Assembly (NCBI RefSeq): GCF_030145185.1
Contig: NZ_JAQYWB010000022.1
Location: 1-64,000 of the forward strand
Reading direction: 5' to 3'
Length of the DNA stretch: 64,000 nt
From: Desulfoluna sp.
GTDB lineage: Bacteria > Desulfobacterota > Desulfobacteria > Desulfobacterales > Desulfolunaceae
Shown: positions 27,509 through 50,736 of the stretch, one piece after another
How the letters are laid out: each line of letters begins with the position of its first letter
Position numbering within the stretch: position 1 is the stretch's first letter
Notes under the pieces: model-generated
What the model was told of the DNA's origin: nothing
Databases searched by the model: none
The model's input: the letters and a program-made list of their open reading frames with translations, nothing else
Translations under genes and position numbers: made by a program

Positions 27509-27653
27509 CCCTGCTCGCCCGAAGGATGAGAAAATCAGACAGAATACCGTGGATTACATTTTGCATTTTTGAAACGACTGAAAACATTGCTGCAAAGAAT
27601 TGTAATTACGGATTATTCCTTAGCCCTGATTGTTTTCTCATGAAATATCCGGG
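27509..27653 (+). repeat. MITE-like repeat, short form (copy a)
   Basis: This 145-base copy begins CCCTGCTCGCCCGAAGG and ends CATGAAATATCCGGG. It carries the right half of the 245-bp element and lacks its left hairpin. TTAA flanks it on both sides (27505-27508 and 27654-27657), a 4-base target duplication. The left TTAA supplies the stop codon of the alcohol dehydrogenase. Confidence 0.8.
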
Positions 27654-27981: not shown

Positions 27982-28137
27982 CCCGGACATTTCATGAGAA
28001 ACCGCAACACAAAAGGATATACATCTTTATTACAGAGCGTTGTGGCGAAGAAATCAGGTTTTCCAAAAATACAAAGTGTCACTTTCGGTTTTCTATTCGA
28101 TTTTCTCACCCTTCGGGCGACTCGTGAAATATGCGGG
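27982..28137 (-). repeat. MITE-like repeat, short form (copy b)
   Basis: The copy runs in the opposite sense to copy a: CCCGGACATTTCATGAG at the left edge, CTCACCCTTCGGG inside and GTGAAATATGCGGG at the right edge. The interior matches the diverged copy at 44703-44947 better than the others. The hairpin section of the long form is missing. Confidence 0.7.
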
Positions 28138-41934: not shown

Positions 41935-42070
41935 CCAGGGTATTTCACGAAAAAACGATCAGAACCAAGAAATAATATGTAATTACAATTCTTTACAGTA
42001 ATATTTTCAGTCGTTTAAAAAATGCAAAATGTAATCCACGGTATTCTGTTTGATTTTCTCACCCTTCGGG
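41935..42070 (-). repeat. MITE-like repeat, short form (copy c)
   Basis: The left edge is a degraded TIR, CCAGGGTATTTCACGA; the right edge reads CTCACCCTTCGGG directly followed by CTAA. Interior matches the 48466 copy. CTA at 42071 supplies the stop codon of the MerR-type gene. Confidence 0.65.
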
Positions 42071-42984: not shown

Positions 42985-44594
42985 ATGAGGTTTTTTGTGA
43001 AAAATCAGCTCCACAGTCCCTGGGGAATCACCCGTTTCCTCACCTATATCACCCCATCGGTTCTCTCCATCCTTACCATTTCTCTTTATTTGGTGGTGGA
43101 TGCCCTTTTTATCTCAAGGTACGCAGGGACCCTTGCCATGGCAGTGGTGAGCATCATCATGCCGCTCTTCAGTCTCTGTTTTGGTGTGGGAATCATGATG
43201 GCCGCAGGGTCCAGCGCGATTATGGGCATCGAAATCGGCGAGGGAAAAACAGACGCAGCCCGGAAACACTTCAGCCTGGGGTTTTACTTTCTGGTGACGA
43301 CAGGCGTGTTGATCATTCTCCTAACCCGGATATTTCACGAGTTGGGTGCGCTCATATGCAAGGCATCAGAGCCGAAGATGTAGTGGTTTACCTCAAGGCT
43401 CTGATAACGAAGCAGATGAGTGCACCCGGCTCGCCCGAAGGGTGAGAAAATCAAACAGAATACCGTGCATTACATTTTGCATTTTTGAAACAACTGAAAA
43501 TATTACTGCAAAGAACGGTAATTACGAATTATTCCTAAGTCCTGATTGTTTTCTCATGAAATATCCGGGCTAAGCGCGGCCACGGGCTGGGATCGTCTGG
43601 CTCGGCTCTTGGGGGCCACGGACCTTCTTGAGTCCGACTGCACCCTCTATCTCAAGGCGTTTATCGTGGGCATTGCCGCCGTGCTGCTTCAGGTCTATCT
43701 GGAGTACTCTATCCGACTGGACGGTGAGCCCCTCTGGGCATTTTACCTGACCCTTGCCGGAGGATTTACCAATGTGGCTCTGGATTATCTGTTCATCGTC
43801 AAGCTTGGCATGGGCGTTGAGGGGGCGGGTATAGCCTCGGCTGCGGGAATATGCGCGGCTTCATCCATGGGAGTTCTCTACTTTCTTACCCGGGGAAAGG
43901 TGTTGAGATTTACACGGCCCGTAATGGATCTGACCTTTTTAAAGGATTCTCTGCTAAACGGCTCATCAGAGATGAGTCACCGAGTTCTCTTCAGGGGTAA
44001 AGACCCTTGTCTTTAACCGGATACTTCTGGTCTACGCAGGAGAGGTCCGGGTGGCGGCCATGTCCATCATCATCTACCTCTACTTTCTCTTTTCATCCCT
44101 CTACATCGGGCTGAGCATGGGGGTCTCTCCCCTTGTGAGCGTCAGCTTCGGGGCGAAGAATGTAGAGAGGCTCAGGGAACTCATGGGCCTCGCGCTGAAA
44201 GTGACCCTGGTGGGATCTTTAATGACCTATCTATCGATCCTTGGCTTTGGAGACGCCATCATAACCCTCTTTACCGCTGGGCGCGCCGATGTCACAAAGC
44301 TCGCGACCGAGGGGATGGCGATTATGTCTCTGGCCTTTCTGGTCAGTGGTTTCAACATCTTGATGTTCAGGACTCTTCACCGCGTTGAACAATGGTAAAA
44401 TATCGGCGTTTATCTCATTTCTGCGCACCTTTGTCTTCACCATAGGTTTTGTGGTGGTACTGCCACCCATCATGGGAACCTCTGGTATCTGGGCCTCCAT
44501 CACCGCAGCAGCAGTCCTGACCCTTTTCGTCTCCATCTTTTTTGCTCTCAAATACCGGGAGCACTATCTTGGGCGGGAAGCCATGGCGATATAG
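42985..44594 (+). pseudogene. MATE-family multidrug efflux pump, broken by an insertion and two frameshifts
   Basis: Joined, the pieces spell a normal MATE sodium/proton-drug antiporter: ITPSVLSILTISLYLVVDAL at the start, LGMGVEGAGIASAAG in the middle and ALNNGKISAFISFLRT late. Three lesions break it. First, a 245-bp repeat at 43325-43569 with CTAA duplications; deletion with one CTAA rejoins IILL to SAATGW in frame. Second, an extra A near 43975 shifts the frame; removing it gives EMVTEFSSGVKTLVFN. Third, an extra base near 44361 before GLFTALNNG. No continuous protein of full length can be made. Confidence 0.9.
43325..43569 (+). repeat. 245-bp MITE-like element (copy d) inside the MATE gene
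   Basis: The element starts CCCGGATATTTCACGAG and ends CTCATGAAATATCCGGG, inverted ends matching over 13 bases perfectly and further imperfectly. CTAA is duplicated at 43321-43324 and 43570-43573. The left part contains two nested inverted repeats: GGGTGCGCTCAT/ATGAGTGCACCC and ATCAGAGC/GCTCTGAT. The element encodes no transposase. Confidence 0.9.
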
Positions 44595-44605
44595 AATCAG
44601 CCATC

Positions 44606-44637
44606 GTCTCTGGCAGAGCGCATGGCGCCTGTCCCCA
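44606..44637 (+). repeat. GGCGCCTGTCCCC repeat, partial copy
   Basis: GTCTCTGGCAGAGCGCATGG, CGCCTGTCCCC holds only the right part of the repeat unit. It lies just after the MATE pseudogene stop. Confidence 0.55.
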
Positions 44638-44702
44638 TGTTCCCATGTTTCCCCCATGGCAGAGAATCATCAGGCCTGACCATCCGAGAGATACGAGCAT
44701 AG

Positions 44703-44947
44703 CCCGGATATTTCACAAGTATAGTTCATGCACAGTCAAGGCGACAGAGCTTCAAATGCAGTGGTTTACCTCAAAGCTCTGGTAACGCAGAAAATGGGTA
44801 CAATCAGATCGTCCGAAGGGTGAGAAAATCGAACTGCAAACCCAAAATGACATTTTGTATTTTGAGAAGGCCTGAGTTTGTCATCGCAACACATTGCAAT
44901 AAGCCTTTATATTCCGATTCATTGCGGTTCCTCATGAGATATCCGGG
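44703..44947 (+). repeat. 245-bp MITE-like element (copy e, diverged)
   Basis: Ends CCCGGATATTTCACAAG and CTCATGAGATATCCGGG. Length is exactly 245 like the other long copies, although the right half differs strongly in sequence, so it is an older or sister subtype. The flanks are ATAG and CTAA, so the target duplication is no longer visible. Confidence 0.8.
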
Positions 44948-44989
44948 CTAAATCCTGACTCGCTCCTGACGGACTCTTTTTCAGTGCTT

Positions 44990-45018
44990 TTGACCTCGAT
45001 AAATCCGTGTGTTATACA
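44990..45018 (+). promoter_or_regulatory. Sigma70 promoter of the caspase-like gene
   Basis: TTGACC (44990-44995), 17-base spacer, TATACA (45013-45018), 41 bases before the start codon: close to consensus at both boxes and spacing. It begins 43 bases after the end of MITE copy e. Confidence 0.7.
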
Positions 45019-45059
45019 GCAGGCAAAATTATTAAAATAATTGAATTTAAGGAATCACG

Positions 45060-46481
45060 ATGCCTGCCTTACTGAGATTACTTTTTTGTCTGTTCATCAT
45101 CCCTGTTGCTTTCACGACAGGTTGCACGAAGGTGAACCTTATCTCCCTCCCCTCTGTTCCACCGGAGTCTCACCTGCCCACGAAGAGCGATTATATTCTT
45201 TACGTTGATTCGGTTCAGATCAATGGCAACCCACATGCGGACCCCAAAAAAATCAAAACAGCTTTTAGTAAACACATAAATCAATCTCGATATTTTAAAA
45301 AGGTCCTGGATTTTTCTGAGTTAGAAAAGCCTTCCAACGAAAAATACCTCATCGTCCGATCAAAGATCACGCCACTGGAATCCCACAAATACAATTGGTG
45401 GGCTGCCTGGCCCGCCGTCTACCCCATGCCCTTCTATTGGCCCTTACAGCCAAAAAAGGGGGAGGTCTCCGTCTCCATGGGATGCGGTGTATATACTCAT
45501 ACGGGTGATCTTGTGGCAGAATATGACGCCTGCGAGAGCCAGCCCTATTCCGTAACCTTTTATGGATTCTTCAACAACGGCGATGCGGAAGCCAACCTTG
45601 GCTCCTGTTATAAATCGGTCTTTGAAAACATCACCGGGGAGATTACCTCCGACAAACGAATCCTGGCTCTGACCCAAGAAGCGTCTCCGAAAAAGACCAC
45701 GGACTCTCTTTCTCCCCCATCAAAAATCATCAAACAAGCCGCCATTCCTGCGGGGAACTTCGGGAGCTATCACGCCCTTGTCATTGGCATCGATACCTAC
45801 CCGGGCTTGTCCCATCTTAAAACCGCCGTCAATGATGCCCGGGCTGTCTCCGGTATCCTCAAAGAAAAATACGGGTTTGAGGTGACGCTCCTTGCAAACC
45901 CCGGACGAGCCGAAATCATCGCGTCCCTCAGCCACTTAAGAAAAACACTCTCACCCCAGGACAATCTCCTGATTTATTATGCCGGACACGGCTGGTTGGA
46001 CAAACAAGCCGATGAAGGCTACTGGCTGCCCGCAGATGCAAAAGCAGGCGATGAATCCAATTGGATCTCCAATGCCACCATCACCTCAGCCATACGCGCC
46101 AATGAGGCCAAGCATGTACTCATCGTCTCCGACAGCTGCTACTCCGGCAAACTCACCCGCGCCATTCATCTTACCCGGAAAACCCGAGGGTACATCCAGC
46201 GCCTGAGTGAGAAAAAGGCCCGTGTCGTGATGGCCTCCGGAGGGCTGGAGCCCGTGGAAGACAGTGGCCGTCAAGGGCATTCCGTCTTTGCTGCGGCATT
46301 TATCGATATGCTTGAAAAAAACGATGCTGTGATGGAAGGCTCGGAGGCTTTTTCACAGATTAGACACTCGGTGATGCTAAACGCGGATCAAACCCCTGAG
46401 TATGGAGATGTCCGAAAGGCCGGACATGAAGGGGGAGATTTTCTTTTCGTGAGCCAGGCCAAGGGACAAATCACCGAGTGA
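45060..46481 (+). CDS. Caspase-family (peptidase C14) exported lipoprotein-like protein
   Basis: The 473-residue protein starts with a hydrophobic signal (about 1-20) ending TTGC, a weak lipobox. An N-terminal domain of about 200 residues is unlike known folds to me. The C-terminal half is a caspase-like protease: HALVIGIDTYPGLSHLKTAV opening, catalytic His310 in IYYAGHGWLD and Cys360 in VSDSCYSGKL. It likely cleaves after basic or acidic residues in the cell envelope, an inference. AAGGA and a good promoter lie upstream. It is flanked by mobile repeats, suggesting recent acquisition. No target protein adjoins. Confidence 0.85.
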   Translation: MPALLRLLFCLFIIPVAFTTGCTKVNLISLPSVPPESHLPTKSDYILYVDSVQINGNPHADPKKIKTAFSKHINQSRYFKKVLDFSELEKPSNEKYLIVRSKITPLESHKYNWWAAWPAVYPMPFYWPLQPKKGEVSVSMGCGVYTHTGDLVAEYDACESQPYSVTFYGFFNNGDAEANLGSCYKSVFENITGEITSDKRILALTQEASPKKTTDSLSPPSKIIKQAAIPAGNFGSYHALVIGIDTYPGLSHLKTAVNDARAVSGILKEKYGFEVTLLANPGRAEIIASLSHLRKTLSPQDNLLIYYAGHGWLDKQADEGYWLPADAKAGDESNWISNATITSAIRANEAKHVLIVSDSCYSGKLTRAIHLTRKTRGYIQRLSEKKARVVMASGGLEPVEDSGRQGHSVFAAAFIDMLEKNDAVMEGSEAFSQIRHSVMLNADQTPEYGDVRKAGHEGGDFLFVSQAKGQITE

Positions 46482-46503
46482 GCCTTAACCGGATATTTTA
46501 TAT

Positions 46504-46581
46504 CGTTACTTATAAAGGAAGAGTGTCTCATAAATTGATGTAATGTTATTGTAGAGGTCAAGCGCATGGCGCCTGTCCCCC
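46504..46581 (+). repeat. GTCTCACAAATTGATGT...GGCGCCTGTCCCC repeat (copy 2)
   Basis: GTTACTTATAAAGGAAGAGT, GTCTCATAAATTGATGTAAT, GTTATTGTAGAGGTCAAGCG, CATGGCGCCTGTCCCC. It has about ten extra bases in the middle. It ends about 20 bases before the AAGGA ribosome site of aspA, so the promoter of that gene must lie in or before the repeat. Confidence 0.75.
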
Positions 46582-46614
46582 GGGCTATAGCCTAAAAATA
46601 TAAAGGACGTACCG

Positions 46615-48027
46615 TTGAAAAATTGTCGTATCGAACATGATTGTATCGGTAAAAGAGAAGTCCCCTGTGAATGCTATTACGGCATTCAGACTCTGAGGGC
46701 TGCTGAAAACTACAAAATCAGCAACATTCCCATCAGTCATTATCCCCGGCTGATCGATTCCCTGGCATACATCAAGATGGCCGCAGCCCAGGCCAACTGT
46801 GAGCTGGGGCTGTTGGACGAAGAAAAGGCAACTCACATCACGCGGGCCTGTGAAAAGATCCTGGAAGGCAAGCACTACGATCAATTTGTGGTGGACGTGA
46901 TCCAGGGCGGTGCCGGGACCTCCACCAATATGTGCGCCAACGAGGTCATCGCCAACCTCGGCCTGGAAAGCATGGGCCACTGCTGCGGTGAATATGAGTC
47001 CCTGCACCCGAACATCGATGTAAACATGTCCCAGTCCACCAATGACGTGTACCCCACAGCCGTGCGCATTACCTTGATTGCCCTGATCCGCCAGCTTATC
47101 GAGGCCATGGCGTACCTGAAAACGGCCTTTGAAAAAAAGGCAGAGGAGTTCAAGGACATCATCAAGATGGGGCGCACTCAGCTCCAGGACGCCGTGCCCA
47201 TGACGTTGGGGCAGGAATTTTCCGTCTACGCCGTGATGATCGGCGAAGATATGATGCGCCTGCAGGAGACCACGGACCTGGTCCGTGAGATCAATATGGG
47301 GGCCACGGCCATCGGCACGGGGTTGAACGCCCACCCCGAGTATGCGGATCTGGTGACGGAAAAACTCTCCAACCTTCTGGGCATTAACCTGATCAAGGCA
47401 GAAAATCTGGTGGAAGCGACCCAGGATACAGGGGCGTATGTCCAGCTATCCGGGGTGCTCAAGCGTGTGGCTGTCAAAGTGTCCAAAATCTGCAATGATC
47501 TACGGCTGATGTCTTCCGGTCCCCGTTGCGGGTTCAACGAGATCAATCTTCCTCCCATGGCCCCAGGTTCTTCCATCATGCCGGGCAAGGTCAATCCCGT
47601 CATTCCCGAAGTGGTCAATCAGACCTGTTTTTATGTGGTGGGTGCAGACATAACCGTCACCATGGCATGTGAAGCCGGTCAGCTGGAACTCAACGTCATG
47701 GAACCGGTGATCGCTCACAGCCTGTTCAGCTCTCTTAACTACCTGCGCAACGCCTTTCAAACCCTGGCGACCCGATGCATTGAAGGCATCACCGCCAATG
47801 AGGATGTCTGTCTCAACTATGTCCGCAACAGCATCGGCCTGGTCACGGCCTTGAACCCCTATATCGGCTATGAAAAATCCACGGAAGTGGCCCACGAGGC
47901 CCTTGCATCCGGCGCGTCCGTGTACGACATCGTCCTGGCCAAGGGGTATATGAAAAAAGAGGAGCTGGACGATATCCTCGCCCCTGAGAACATGATCACC
48001 CCCCGATATTTTCATAAAAAAGACTAA
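46615..48027 (+). CDS. aspA: Aspartate ammonia-lyase
   Basis: The 470-residue enzyme converts aspartate to fumarate and ammonia. The fumarase/aspartase signature GSSIMPGKVNP lies at 318-328 on the flexible loop with the catalytic serine; further marks are GGAGTSTNMCANEVIANLGL and the substrate loop SQSTNDVYPTAVR, together with GRTQLQDAVPMTLGQE. The length fits AspA (about 478). It starts with TTG, with AAGGA 8 bases before. Aspartate could come from the symporter or ABC system upstream in the window. A strong terminator follows. Confidence 0.95.
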   Translation: MKNCRIEHDCIGKREVPCECYYGIQTLRAAENYKISNIPISHYPRLIDSLAYIKMAAAQANCELGLLDEEKATHITRACEKILEGKHYDQFVVDVIQGGAGTSTNMCANEVIANLGLESMGHCCGEYESLHPNIDVNMSQSTNDVYPTAVRITLIALIRQLIEAMAYLKTAFEKKAEEFKDIIKMGRTQLQDAVPMTLGQEFSVYAVMIGEDMMRLQETTDLVREINMGATAIGTGLNAHPEYADLVTEKLSNLLGINLIKAENLVEATQDTGAYVQLSGVLKRVAVKVSKICNDLRLMSSGPRCGFNEINLPPMAPGSSIMPGKVNPVIPEVVNQTCFYVVGADITVTMACEAGQLELNVMEPVIAHSLFSSLNYLRNAFQTLATRCIEGITANEDVCLNYVRNSIGLVTALNPYIGYEKSTEVAHEALASGASVYDIVLAKGYMKKEELDDILAPENMITPRYFHKKD

Positions 48028-48035
48028 GCTGATAT

Positions 48036-48069
48036 AAAAGCCCCCGGCGTATCATGGCCGGGGGCTTTT
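48036..48069 (+). terminator. aspA rho-independent terminator
   Basis: AAAAGCCCCCGGC and GCCGGGGGCTTTT form a perfect 13-bp stem with an 8-base loop, 9 bases after the stop, ending in TTTT. Confidence 0.88.
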
Positions 48070-48308
48070 GTGCTCTATGAAAATTCGACGGATCACACGC
48101 CCCCCCTCGTCTTTCTCCGCATCTTTAAAAGGGAGGCCATCAAGCGCCGTCCGACTGATCACAGGGTAAACGGTCTTCTGGCCGGGATCTGTCCTGACCA
48201 TCCGGGGAAGACGAGGCATACGCTTCATCTCCCTGGTTTGTCATGTCAGAAATACGGATATACGGATATATTGATAATTTTCTGGAATGAATTTCTTTTT
48301 AAAAAGGC

Positions 48309-48376
48309 AGGTTACTTATTGAGAGAGAGTGTCTCACAGATTGATGTAGAGGTCAGGCGCATGGTGCCTGTCCCCT
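48309..48376 (+). repeat. GTCTCACAAATTGATGT...GGCGCCTGTCCCC repeat (copy 3)
   Basis: CAGGTTACTTATTGAGAGAG, AGTGTCTCACAGATTGATGT, AGAGGTCAGGCGCATGGTGC, CTGTCCCC. It shares the GTTACT...GAGAG lead with copy 1. Confidence 0.75.
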
Positions 48377-48465
48377 GGTTTGCTGGTTTGCTGTGGTTTA
48401 TAGCACTCGGACTGCCTTGAAATTGCCTTAGAGCACTCGTTTTGGTACTGAAAAGGGCATTCTAA

Positions 48466-48710
48466 CCCGGATATTTCATGAGAAAACAATCAGGGCTAAG
48501 GAATAATTCGTAATGACAGTTCTTTGCGGTAATATTTTTAGTCGTTCCAAAAATGCAAAATGTAATCCACGCTATTCTGTTTGATTTTCTCACCCTTCGG
48601 GCGAGCCGGGTGCACTCATCTGCCGTGTTATCAGAGCCTTGAGGTAAACCACTACATCTTCAGCTCTGATGCCTTGCATATGAGCGCACCCAACTCGTGA
48701 AATATCCGGG
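48466..48710 (-). repeat. 245-bp MITE-like element (copy f)
   Basis: This copy is inverted relative to d and g: CCCGGATATTTCATGAG at the left and CTCGTGAAATATCCGGG at the right. CTAA is duplicated at 48462-48465 and 48711-48714. Exactly 245 bases, about 95 percent like copy d by eye. Confidence 0.9.
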
Positions 48711-48816
48711 CTAAGCCTCAAAAACAGCTCTTTTAGACTAAAAAAGCCTTAGTCTGCAATGGATTGGCGTGGTCCGATTCCATTTCTAATACTTATTATG
48801 GATGTCCCCAGCTATT

Positions 48817-49851
48817 TTATTCTGCCGAGGGGGAAACGGTGCCTGTGAGCAGCGGTGTTATCACGACTCGGCGGTTGGCAGCGTGATCAGCTTCGGTAGT
48901 ACCAGTCGTTAACGGTTTAGACTCACCATAAGCCTTGCTCTTTAATCGATTATAAGCAATACCACACGACATCAGATACTCTTTGATCGACGCTGCCCTG
49001 GCTTCTGTCAACAATTGGTTGTATTGATCATCAGCGCGCACATCCGCATGTGTCTCTATCAGGTAGCTGTAATTAGAGCATCGTTTTGCCTGCGCAATCA
49101 TTCTGTCCAGGATCGGCAGAAACACGCTATTCGGTTTGGTTGAGTTTGTGTCAAATACCTGCATGTGTACAGACCACGCCTGCGCGCAGTTGCTGGGCAC
49201 TTCGTCTCGCGATGCAACGTTAATGGGTTTCTTCTCTGCTTCGGCCTTTTTGTAATCCTCTACAAACTTATCAATGATTTTCAAAATCGCGTCATACATC
49301 CATTCCCCACGATTCTGACACCAATTTGAATCACTTCCAGAACCCCAGGTCCCCAACTTGAATTGTGAATCCGGTCTTCGCAGGATGCTCGCTGACTGCA
49401 TGAATGACATCCAGACATTGTTACGACAGCAGTGTTCGTCATCAGACAACATTTCAGCTTCTTCAAGTGCTTGGCCCGTTAATCCAATCGTGCCTCCAGA
49501 GTAACCGGGATATACTGCAATCTCAGGTTGGCCCGGCGTCGTCTGCATTTCTTCCTTGGTTAACAACTTCAAACCAACATCGTTCAGTCGTTGCTTGATC
49601 TGAAACTTAAGATCATCGCGCATGGTAATACCATTCTTTTTGCTACTACCTTCAACATAATCCAAAATGACATAGACACCCTCAATTCCTGCAAGAGACG
49701 AGTAATTCTTGAGATACTCTTCAGTACCAATGGGGATCAAAGAGGTAGTTCCCGGATAGTACCGCACAGCCTCACTTTTCGACGTGTCAGCAAAAACAGT
49801 GGCGGAGAAGCAAAACAGGGTTATCGTGAGAAATAAAATGGCAGACCGCAT
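48817..49851 (-). CDS. OmpA-family exported protein
   Basis: The 344-residue protein has a signal peptide (core AILFLTITLFCF, cleavage after VFA). A central domain with six or so cysteines (DDEHCCRNNVW, SNWCQNRGEW) is of no known type. The C-terminal OmpA-like domain (about 225-335) shows LIETHADVRADDQYNQLLTE, a variant of the peptidoglycan-binding GHTDxxGxxxxN motif, then ARAASIKEYL and HAANRRVVIT. It probably anchors in the periplasm to peptidoglycan. ATG 49851 has GGAG 8 bases upstream. It is AT-rich relative to core genes and lies between MITE copies f and g. Confidence 0.85.
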   Translation of the reverse strand: MRSAILFLTITLFCFSATVFADTSKSEAVRYYPGTTSLIPIGTEEYLKNYSSLAGIEGVYVILDYVEGSSKKNGITMRDDLKFQIKQRLNDVGLKLLTKEEMQTTPGQPEIAVYPGYSGGTIGLTGQALEEAEMLSDDEHCCRNNVWMSFMQSASILRRPDSQFKLGTWGSGSDSNWCQNRGEWMYDAILKIIDKFVEDYKKAEAEKKPINVASRDEVPSNCAQAWSVHMQVFDTNSTKPNSVFLPILDRMIAQAKRCSNYSYLIETHADVRADDQYNQLLTEARAASIKEYLMSCGIAYNRLKSKAYGESKPLTTGTTEADHAANRRVVITPLLTGTVSPSAE

Positions 49852-50316
49852 ATCCATTACTCCATGTTGGTTTCCAATCAATTCAATAGTTATCGGCTGC
49901 AAGTCGTATAACTATTGCGAACAAGATCAAATCGATTGGTTTTTTTTGGCGTAAAACCACACGAAAATCACCGAACAAAACGGAAAATGAAAGAATAATT
50001 GGAGTCCTAACAGTTGCTGAGATACTGTCAGCTGCGTTCGCCAAAAACAACCAACGACGAACGCTAACCCGGATATTTCACGAGTTGGGTGCGCTCATAT
50101 GCAAGGCATCAGAGCTGAAGATGTAGTCGTTTACCTCAAGGCTCTGATAACGCGGCAGATGAGTGCACCCGGCTCGCCCGAAGGGTGAGAAAATCAGACA
50201 GAATACCGTGGATTACATTTTGCATTTTTGAAACGACTGAAAAAATCGCTGCAAAGAACGGTCATTACAAATTATTCTTTAGTCCTGATTGTTTTCTCAT
50301 GAAATATCCGGGCTAT
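49852..50316. other. Intergenic region with MITE copy g
   Basis: The AT-rich part (49903-50067) should hold the promoter of the OmpA-like gene; the rest is MITE copy g and the junction with the transposase remnant. No gene is supported. Confidence 0.5.
50068..50312 (+). repeat. 245-bp MITE-like element (copy g)
   Basis: Ends CCCGGATATTTCACGAG and CTCATGAAATATCCGGG, exactly 245 bases, nearly identical to copy d. The left flank is CTAA and the right flank CTAT, one base different from a perfect duplication. It abuts the IS630 remnant. Confidence 0.88.
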
Positions 50317-50736
50317 CATGGTCGTAGCTACGCTCCATGTGGGGAAACACCATCAATTAAATTGCATCCGAGATGTGAACGAGTGAACCTGATATCGACT
50401 GTAACCAATCAAGGGAAAGTCCGTTTTATGGTTTACGATGGGAAAATGAATTCTCAAACTCTGCTTCAATTCATGACGCGTCTTATTGAAGGTGCTTCTA
50501 AAAAGATTTTTTTGATTCTTGATAATCTAAAGGGACACCACAGCCGAATCGTGAAAGCGTGGTTGGCGGACCATGAAGCTGAAATTGAGGTGTTTTATCT
50601 TCCTTCATATTCTCCGGGACTCAATCCAGATGAGTATCTTAACTGCGATTTGAAAGCGGGAGTTCACAGCAAAACTCCAGCGAGAACAAAAAAGCAATTA
50701 AAAACGAAGGCAATATCGCATCTAAGAAGGCTCTAA
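50317..50736 (+). pseudogene. IS630-family transposase remnant, C-terminal half
   Basis: From the MITE edge the frame reads HGRSYAPCGETPSIKLH, then LILDNLKGHHSRIVKAW with the second catalytic Asp, and FYLPSYSPGLNPDEYLNCDL with the last acidic residue (Glu) of the DDE triad. That is the right half of an IS630 DDE transposase. The left half, with the first Asp, is absent; sequence left of MITE g does not continue it. It cannot transpose. The outer right IS end was not located. Confidence 0.85.

Follow-up and report, generated by a model that had tools for sequence, protein, structure and literature searches.

Miniature gene-less transposons in Desulfoluna share a covariation-supported hairpin core with differently built elements of distant bacteria

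Described relatives and the Desulfoluna family

Bacterial MITEs such as Chunjie of Geobacter uraniireducens and the Correia element are short, gene-less elements with inverted ends, target duplications and many copies. Chunjie is 235 bp long and is accompanied by 37 further copies of 178-235 bp and 57 partial ones, and MITE transcripts are said to form stable stem-loops in general (PMC10969869). QMITE2 of Coxiella burnetii is a MITE with a palindromic stem, short relatives of which are reported in alphaproteobacteria and one gammaproteobacterium, a precedent for a stem shared across classes; its duplications are 7-11 nt of variable sequence and it holds a GTAG REP (PMC5896051). IS1380 insertion sequences encode a transposase and make duplications of 4-5 bp. 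REP/REPIN elements and integron attC sites are dispersed, strand-specific hairpins with conserved unpaired bases, and eukaryotic SINEs, which are retroelements, may share one conserved core in elements with different ends.

The window analysed here is a stretch of 64,000 nucleotides from a Desulfoluna genome (contig NZ_JAQYWB010000022.1). An earlier note had described four 245-bp MITE-like copies in it, together with three short derivatives and YTAA target duplications, and this observation is confirmed: all four copies are exactly 245 bp. Their ends are CCCGGATATTTCA and its inverse, with one changed base in the right end of copy 2, and at this length they are too short to encode a transposase. 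The short derivatives are real as well. The features are as follows.

43325..43569 (+): MITE copy 1, inside a MatE-like gene (MatE matches in 42985-43323 and 44051-44398), with the CTAA duplication at 43321-43324 and 43570-43573
43338..43445 (+): conserved hairpin (hp1) of copy 1, followed by the CCCGAAGGG mini-hairpin
44703..44947 (+): MITE copy 2, divergent, flanks ATAG/CTAA
44716..44823 (+): hp1 of copy 2, degenerate (38 bits, 44721-44808)
48466..48710 (-): MITE copy 3, with the CTAA duplication at 48462-48465 and 48711-48714
48590..48697 (-): hp1 of copy 3
50068..50312 (+): MITE copy 4, flanks CTAA/CTAT, beside an IS630 remnant
50081..50188 (+): hp1 of copy 4
27509..27653 (+): 145-bp derivative without hp1, starting at an internal CCCGG-like sequence, with a TTAA duplication
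27982..28137 (-): 156-bp derivative lacking hp1, flanks TTAG/ATAG
41935..42070 (-): truncated derivative, right half only

Within the window, the 13-base end with up to two mismatches occurs 14 times, against a shuffled mean of 2.15 and a maximum of 6. Genome-wide, a 17-base end pattern with up to one mismatch has 505 sites and none in the control. The genome holds at least 42 matches to the 245-mer (40 of 402 candidates were scored) and at least 150 hairpin places (all 150 scored candidates); 21 of the latter start within 150 bases of a contig start, so that some copies may be counted in two contigs. In the fetched stretches of this genome, 41 of 55 elements have identical 4-bp flanks (re-paired mean 10.6, maximum 19 in 2000 shuffles), whereas 0 of 55 match at 3 or 5 bp. 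The duplicated words are CTAA (16), TTAG (8), CTAT (5), TTAA (5), ATAG (4) and three others (1 each). The note's YTAA is thus too narrow: 29 of the 41 are YTAR, and the rest are other words, mostly with TA in the middle.

Candidate mobilisers

The note's interpretation is partly supported: a MITE with 4-bp duplications is borne out, whereas the IS1380-type parent that it proposed is plausible but not shown. The conditions that the note had named as refuting it, no further copies or a parent with other ends, were not encountered. In favour of this parent, a locus in a genome of the same order (L066) encodes a complete IS1380 transposase (NF033539, 411 bits, cut-off 180) between ends CCTGAATAATTCA, which are alike in 10 of 13 positions to the MITE ends, with CTAA at the right flank but CAAA at the left. 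A second IS1380 relative (L069) has CCTGAATTTTGCA at both sides, identical to the ends of a sister MITE class and with TAATA at one side; its transposase scores 159 bits, under the cut-off, and its flanks do not match each other. The 4-bp duplications of class I and the 5-bp duplications of class II are also of the length made by this family. Against it, no full-length IS with the window's own CCCGG ends was found. A PF13701 profile search gave only a 72-aa sub-threshold remnant in this genome (19 bits, cut-off 34.7) and no match in five congeners.

Alternatively, the mobiliser may belong to another family, such as IS701 or IS630, which we consider unlikely. An IS630 remnant lies beside copy 4, and IS701 appears as a weak second NCBIfam match of the L066 protein (21.5 bits, cut-off 170). 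However, IS630 elements duplicate TA, which does not fit the 4-bp duplication of the window's class, so that the remnant is rejected as parent, and the MITE ends resemble those of IS1380 elements of the order.

A conserved hairpin in elements with dissimilar ends

What the note had missed, and what makes the element unusual, lies inside. Bases 14-121 form a long hairpin with two conserved internal loops (GCAAG opposite GCAG), the second being a rotated copy of the first. In 17 sequences, 28 of 40 pairs show compensatory change. In 39 diverse sequences, 27 of 29 pairs do so, 91.4% of cells are paired against 64.6% when shuffled, and covariation is 0.711 against 0.206, or 0.09-0.18 when slid. 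The folding is strand-specific, with 104 G-T against 30 A-C cells, although G-T had been counted as a pair in 12 outer pairs when the sequences were found, which favours G-T slightly there.

The hairpin matches in 173 of 291 genomes of the order, with no match in the other 118, and in records labelled Clostridia, Selenomonas, Aminicenantes and Acidobacteriota. Copy numbers are floors, because several of these searches scored or listed only part of the candidates, and a pattern scan behind the cross-phylum matches listed 80 of 109 stretches. A locus labelled Actinomycetota (L167) carries class II ends as in Desulfobacterales and is the only match in its genome, and may thus be a misbinned contig. 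Although loop 2 had been left free in that pattern, in 22 alignment rows from the loci found G35 is kept in 20, G38 in 20, C59 in 21 and A61 in 19.

In these genomes the hairpin sits in elements with dissimilar ends and 2-, 4- or 5-bp duplications. Duplications were seen for CCCGGATATTTCA ends in 46 of 69 (4 bp), CCTGGATTATTCA in 9 of 22 (4 bp), CCTGAATTTTGCA in 18 of 54 (5 bp), CCTAAAATTTGCA in 2 of 2 (5 bp), GGGGTTCTCTAAAAACC in 6 of 7 (4 bp) and GCGTGAC-type ends in 6 of 8 rows, or 4 of 5 elements (TA). Three groups have their own repeated duplication (IS1380-type CC..., GGGGTTCTCT... and GCGTGAC...), and further end sequences were seen in one or a few copies. Re-pairing controls, which cover two classes only, gave 13 of 20 for class I outside this genome (mean 3.6, maximum 11) and 18 of 67 at 5 bp for class II (mean 1.9, maximum 7). 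Of 216 hairpin copies, 52 could not be given ends; duplicate copies and copies cut by locus ends had been dropped before counting.

Conceivably, this is an ordinary MITE whose interior is leftover IS sequence that happens to fold, with loops conserved only because the copies are recent. Indeed, the mean pairwise identity of 43 own-genome copies is 90%. We consider this very unlikely, and the cross-phylum comparison largely refutes it: loops are kept while stems vary with compensation across phyla, ends and duplication lengths are dissimilar, and a search with our hairpin query (R2) found no hp1 in 17 PF13701 loci.

No match to the hairpin was found in Rfam 15 at the gathering threshold, either in the window or in 12 further loci; the one weak match, mir-1781 in locus L129, scored 24.3 bits against 68 (E 2.4) and lay on the other strand. 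In viral contigs, a strict pattern gave 0 hits and a relaxed one 34 contigs, many of which are probably chance; R2 matches two of them strongly (L270 and L280, E below 1e-6), one (L293) at 0.007 and three weakly. Plasmids gave no match for the three queries tried, and phages none for three of four, the fourth hitting a single unverified faecal record, MT836497.1. Literature searches, with little coverage of subscription papers, listed no report of the hairpin; papers containing one of the loop words were on unrelated subjects, judging by their titles.

Possible roles of the hairpin

How might such a core be maintained? We favour, with moderate confidence, a family of non-autonomous DNA transposons moved in trans by a DDE transposase that recognises the 13-bp ends and makes a 4-bp staggered cut at NTAR-type sites, an IS1380-type enzyme, not found intact in this genome, being the likeliest. 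Of this, the ends and duplications are demonstrated by the analysis, whereas the enzyme is deduced. The interior does not look like IS debris, and we infer that the module is kept because a widely conserved host molecule recognises the folded strand, most likely as RNA, and that this would benefit the element through tolerance of insertion, copy stability or efficiency of mobilisation. This recognition, the putative partner and its effect are inferred. Seven derivatives of 113-156 bp without hp1 also carry intact duplications, so the hairpin is not needed for movement.

Alternatively, the hairpin may be a host-useful RNA (a 3' UTR, small RNA or regulatory element) that was spread by transposons and is kept at individual sites for the host. 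Strand-specific folding would fit this view, as would the position of the copies, which by plain ORF calls lie nearly always between genes: 1 of 130 placed copies is inside an ORF, with copies within 900 bases of a locus end left out, and window copy 1 lies in a broken MatE gene. In one Aminicenantes genome (G587) the hairpin is sense in 8 of 8 co-directional sites. However, no common gene orientation emerges, with 8 sense to 9 antisense in Desulfoluna, 17 to 42 in the other lineages fetched and 2 to 7 in random stretches. Promoter- and terminator-like sites are at chance level over 43200-50450, although three of the eight promoter-like matches are the same site, reading inward from the right end, in three copies. 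Together with the 118 genomes of the order without a match, this makes the reading doubtful.

A similarly doubtful possibility is a single-stranded DNA hairpin that serves as a recombination or nicking site, attC-like or REP-like, for another recombinase, with the inverted ends as a second means of spread. Strand-specific pairing also fits single-stranded DNA, and whole elements fold as single hairpins in a Selenomonas locus and two viral contigs. However, the hairpins are enclosed in transposon ends, and the flanking duplications show DDE-type insertion. A replication-strand preference was not seen either: 58 of 118 elements lie on the G-rich strand in three genomes. This count used only the places listed in two of the searches and left out two further sampled genomes (G072 and G187), in which the skew gave no clear origin.

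From a broader perspective, and only tentatively, a single pan-bacterial structured nucleic-acid module, two rotated GCAAG/GCAG internal loops in a variable stem, might be a functional part in its own right. It would bind a conserved host molecule and would have been recruited again and again by tiny transposons moved by unrelated transposases, a bacterial counterpart of the core domains shared by SINEs, although the elements described here are DNA transposons with duplications.

Bacterial MITEs are usually treated as leftovers of one insertion sequence. A core that keeps the same unpaired bases and re-pairs its stems across phyla, while the ends and the duplication length change, is hard to explain in that way. 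It points to a host partner common to distant bacteria and provides a concrete RNA or DNA bait with which to find that partner, and it might also help to explain why some of these elements pass 100 copies per genome.

Repeat copies, target sites and the candidate parent

The earlier note described four 245-bp copies with shared inverted ends and target duplications, and the copies, their ends and their flanks are as it reported. The 13-base end, allowing up to 2 mismatches, occurs 14 times in the window, against a shuffled mean of 2.15. The genome (5.79 Mb, 152 contigs) holds 250 + 255 sites for CCCGGATATTTCAYRAG with at most one mismatch, whereas the reversed control gave 0; 332 of the sites in the genome are exact. 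Of five congeners, among them Desulfoluna limicola ASN36, D. spongiiphila AA1 and D. butyratoxydans MSL71, three have 56, 59 and 83 exact sites and two have none. Of 58 genomes searched, 6 have any exact site, the source genome included.

Among 55 elements bounded by both ends in the stretches examined from this genome, 41 have identical 4-bp flanks, whereas random re-pairing gives 10.6 on average and at most 19, and the same test at 3 or 5 bp gives 0 of 55. Matching flanks are present in 34 of 44 elements of 240-250 bp and in 7 of 11 shorter ones. These seven (113-156 bp) lack the conserved hairpin of the left half (hp1), so derivatives without the hairpin also moved. One subfamily begins at an internal CCCGG-like sequence; its members at window 27509-27653 and at the loci L015 and L044 have matching flanks, whereas those at L032 and L042 do not. 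The enzyme can apparently use an alternative end. At two further loci, L039 (9776-10269) and L045 (975-1224), neighbouring elements share one CTAA between them, as if one had inserted into the duplication of the other. The surroundings of the copies in the window include the following features.

42985-44594, a MatE-type transporter gene in pieces, interrupted by copy 1 and in further broken frames; MatE is detected before the copy and in a later piece after it, but not in the piece next to it.
45060-46481, a caspase-like protein (Peptidase_C14, E 1e-21) between copies 2 and 3.
50185-50736, an IS630 transposase remnant (NF033545, 101.9 bits) directly beside copy 4; its ORF as called starts inside the MITE.

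The repeat itself fragments the assembly, because at least 21 of 150 hairpin places in this genome (a lower bound on their number) start within 150 bases of a contig start, for example at C22:24-131, C28:21-128 and C34:21-128 (contig:positions).

Which enzyme might move these elements? The earlier note proposed a parent of the IS1380 type, and this interpretation is supported only in part. A search with PF13701 (IS1380 type) returned a single 72-aa piece below the cut-off in this genome, located beside a truncated copy of the element, and nothing in the five congeners. In the same order, however, the locus L066 encodes a full IS1380 transposase (NF033539, 411 bits) between CCTGAATAATTCA ends, with CTAA at the right and CAAA at the left. 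A second locus, L069, encodes an IS1380 relative that scores below the NCBI cut-off (159 of 180) and has CCTGAATTTTGCA at both ends, identical to a sister MITE class, although its flanks, TAATA and TATCA, do not match each other. Thus, the IS1380 assignment is likely but not proved.

A conserved hairpin in elements with different ends

Outside the genus, most matches to the element cover only its left half. When aligned, these sequences keep the internal-loop bases and change their stems: in 17 sequences, 28 of 40 predicted pairs have changes on both sides that keep the pair. Seven single sequences fold better than shuffled controls (z -3.1 to -10.1), as does the whole element (z -9.2). The full 245-mer is predicted to fold as a junction of the end stem, hp1, a mini-hairpin and a second, less conserved hairpin, and the other strand folds about as well. 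Within this genome (43 copies), the ends differ from consensus by 1-2%, the hp1 parts by about 1-7% and the right half by 9%.

A covariance model built from 15 sequences (R1) matches 173 of 291 genomes of the order and 36 of 297 in an even sample of the phylum, 29 of the latter lying outside the order by our count. A 24-base exact pattern on loop 1, for which we calculate about 0.03 chance matches in 257 billion bases, found at least 109 stretches. Of 80 of these stretches, 53 are labelled as Desulfobacter types, Desulfoluna or Deltaproteobacteria and 27 otherwise: 23 Bacillota (Gemmiger, Faecalibacterium, Subdoligranulum, Ruthenibacterium, Ruminococcus, Oscillospiraceae, Clostridia, Selenomonas), 2 Aminicenantes, 1 Acidobacteriota and 1 Actinomycetota of doubtful binning. 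All 14 such genomes searched with a second model (R2) have matches, from 1 up to at least 150; because these genomes were chosen for holding a copy, and some of their sequences are in the model, only the copy numbers are informative. Loop 2 was left free in the 24-base pattern and is nevertheless conserved, as judged from 22 alignment rows from those loci, a few of which were found by a looser script. One hairpin copy also lies in an unverified phage record from human faeces (MT836497.1, 3001-3059).

We sorted 216 distinct hairpin copies by their ends, and 164 could be assigned; the 52 others include copies cut by locus or contig ends.

Table. End classes of hairpin-bearing elements and their target duplications. 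Re-pairing controls exist for classes I and II only.
Class I, CCCGGATATTTCA: 4 bp in 46 of 69
Class II, CCTGAATTTTGCA: 5 bp in 18 of 54
Class III, CCTAAAATTTGCA: 5 bp in 2 of 2
Class IV, GGGGTTCTCTAAAAACC, Clostridia: 4 bp in 6 of 7
Class V, Gemmiger and relatives: 1 assigned element, no clear duplication
Class VI, CCTGGATTATTCA: 4 bp in 9 of 22
Class VII, GCGTGAC, Clostridia: TA in 6 of 8 rows; these are 5 elements, 4 of which match, because elements with two hairpins are counted twice
Class VIII, Selenomonas: TA in 1 of 1

Judged by eye, classes I, II, III and VI look like one IS1380-type group, whereas IV, VII and VIII do not. Further whole-element hairpins with other ends were read in a Selenomonas locus and in two viral contigs. 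Clostridial elements of 271 bp at the loci L126, L148 and L149 hold two hairpins of the family in opposite orientation, one of them a variant with TACAAGG/GACGCAGTA loops. In one congener (G004; loci L063, L120 and L051), the hairpin sits in elements with CCTAAAAATTGCA ends and exact CCCGG ends are absent, though one right-half class I derivative exists (L051). This suggests an exchange of end class within the genus.

The probable folded strand and the possible role of the hairpin

In the strand defined by the loops, G-T pairs outnumber A-C pairs 104 to 30, and in the two inner helices alone, which our sequence filter did not touch, we count 27 to 13. A double-stranded or cruciform role would give no such difference, so one strand is probably the folded one, either as RNA or as ssDNA. 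With genes called as plain ORFs, the copies lie between genes (1 of 130 placed copies is inside an ORF). Their orientation relative to co-directional neighbours is 8 sense to 9 antisense in Desulfoluna, 17 to 42 in the other lineages sampled at that stage, 2 to 7 in random samples and 8 to 0 in an Aminicenantes genome. There is no replication-strand preference (58 of 118 in three genomes). Promoter-like and terminator-like sites are at the shuffled level (8 against 7.9 and 6 against 7.4, respectively), although one weak promoter-like site recurs in three copies, reading inward from the right end (window 43557-43528, 48478-48507 and 50300-50271). These results are compatible with RNA as well as with DNA.

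As a MITE family, the elements are an ordinary addition to those already described. The shared core, in contrast, appears to be undescribed as far as could be searched: it has no Rfam match, and literature searches showed no report of it (related work consulted: PMC10969869, PMC4133298, PMC2267715), although most subscription papers lay outside their reach and the claim of novelty is therefore provisional. The nearest precedent seen is the stem of QMITE2, which has relatives in other proteobacterial classes (PMC5896051).

How might the hairpin benefit these elements? Our analysis establishes DDE-type insertion with fixed duplications, the end classes, a hairpin with conserved rotated loops and a strand bias, its presence in dissimilar element classes, and the movement of derivatives that lack it. 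From these findings we infer, without direct demonstration, that the elements are mobilised in trans by IS1380 and that hp1 is retained because a conserved host molecule recognises it. Since the hairpin is not needed for movement itself, its benefit more likely lies in the toleration or persistence of insertions, or in efficiency.
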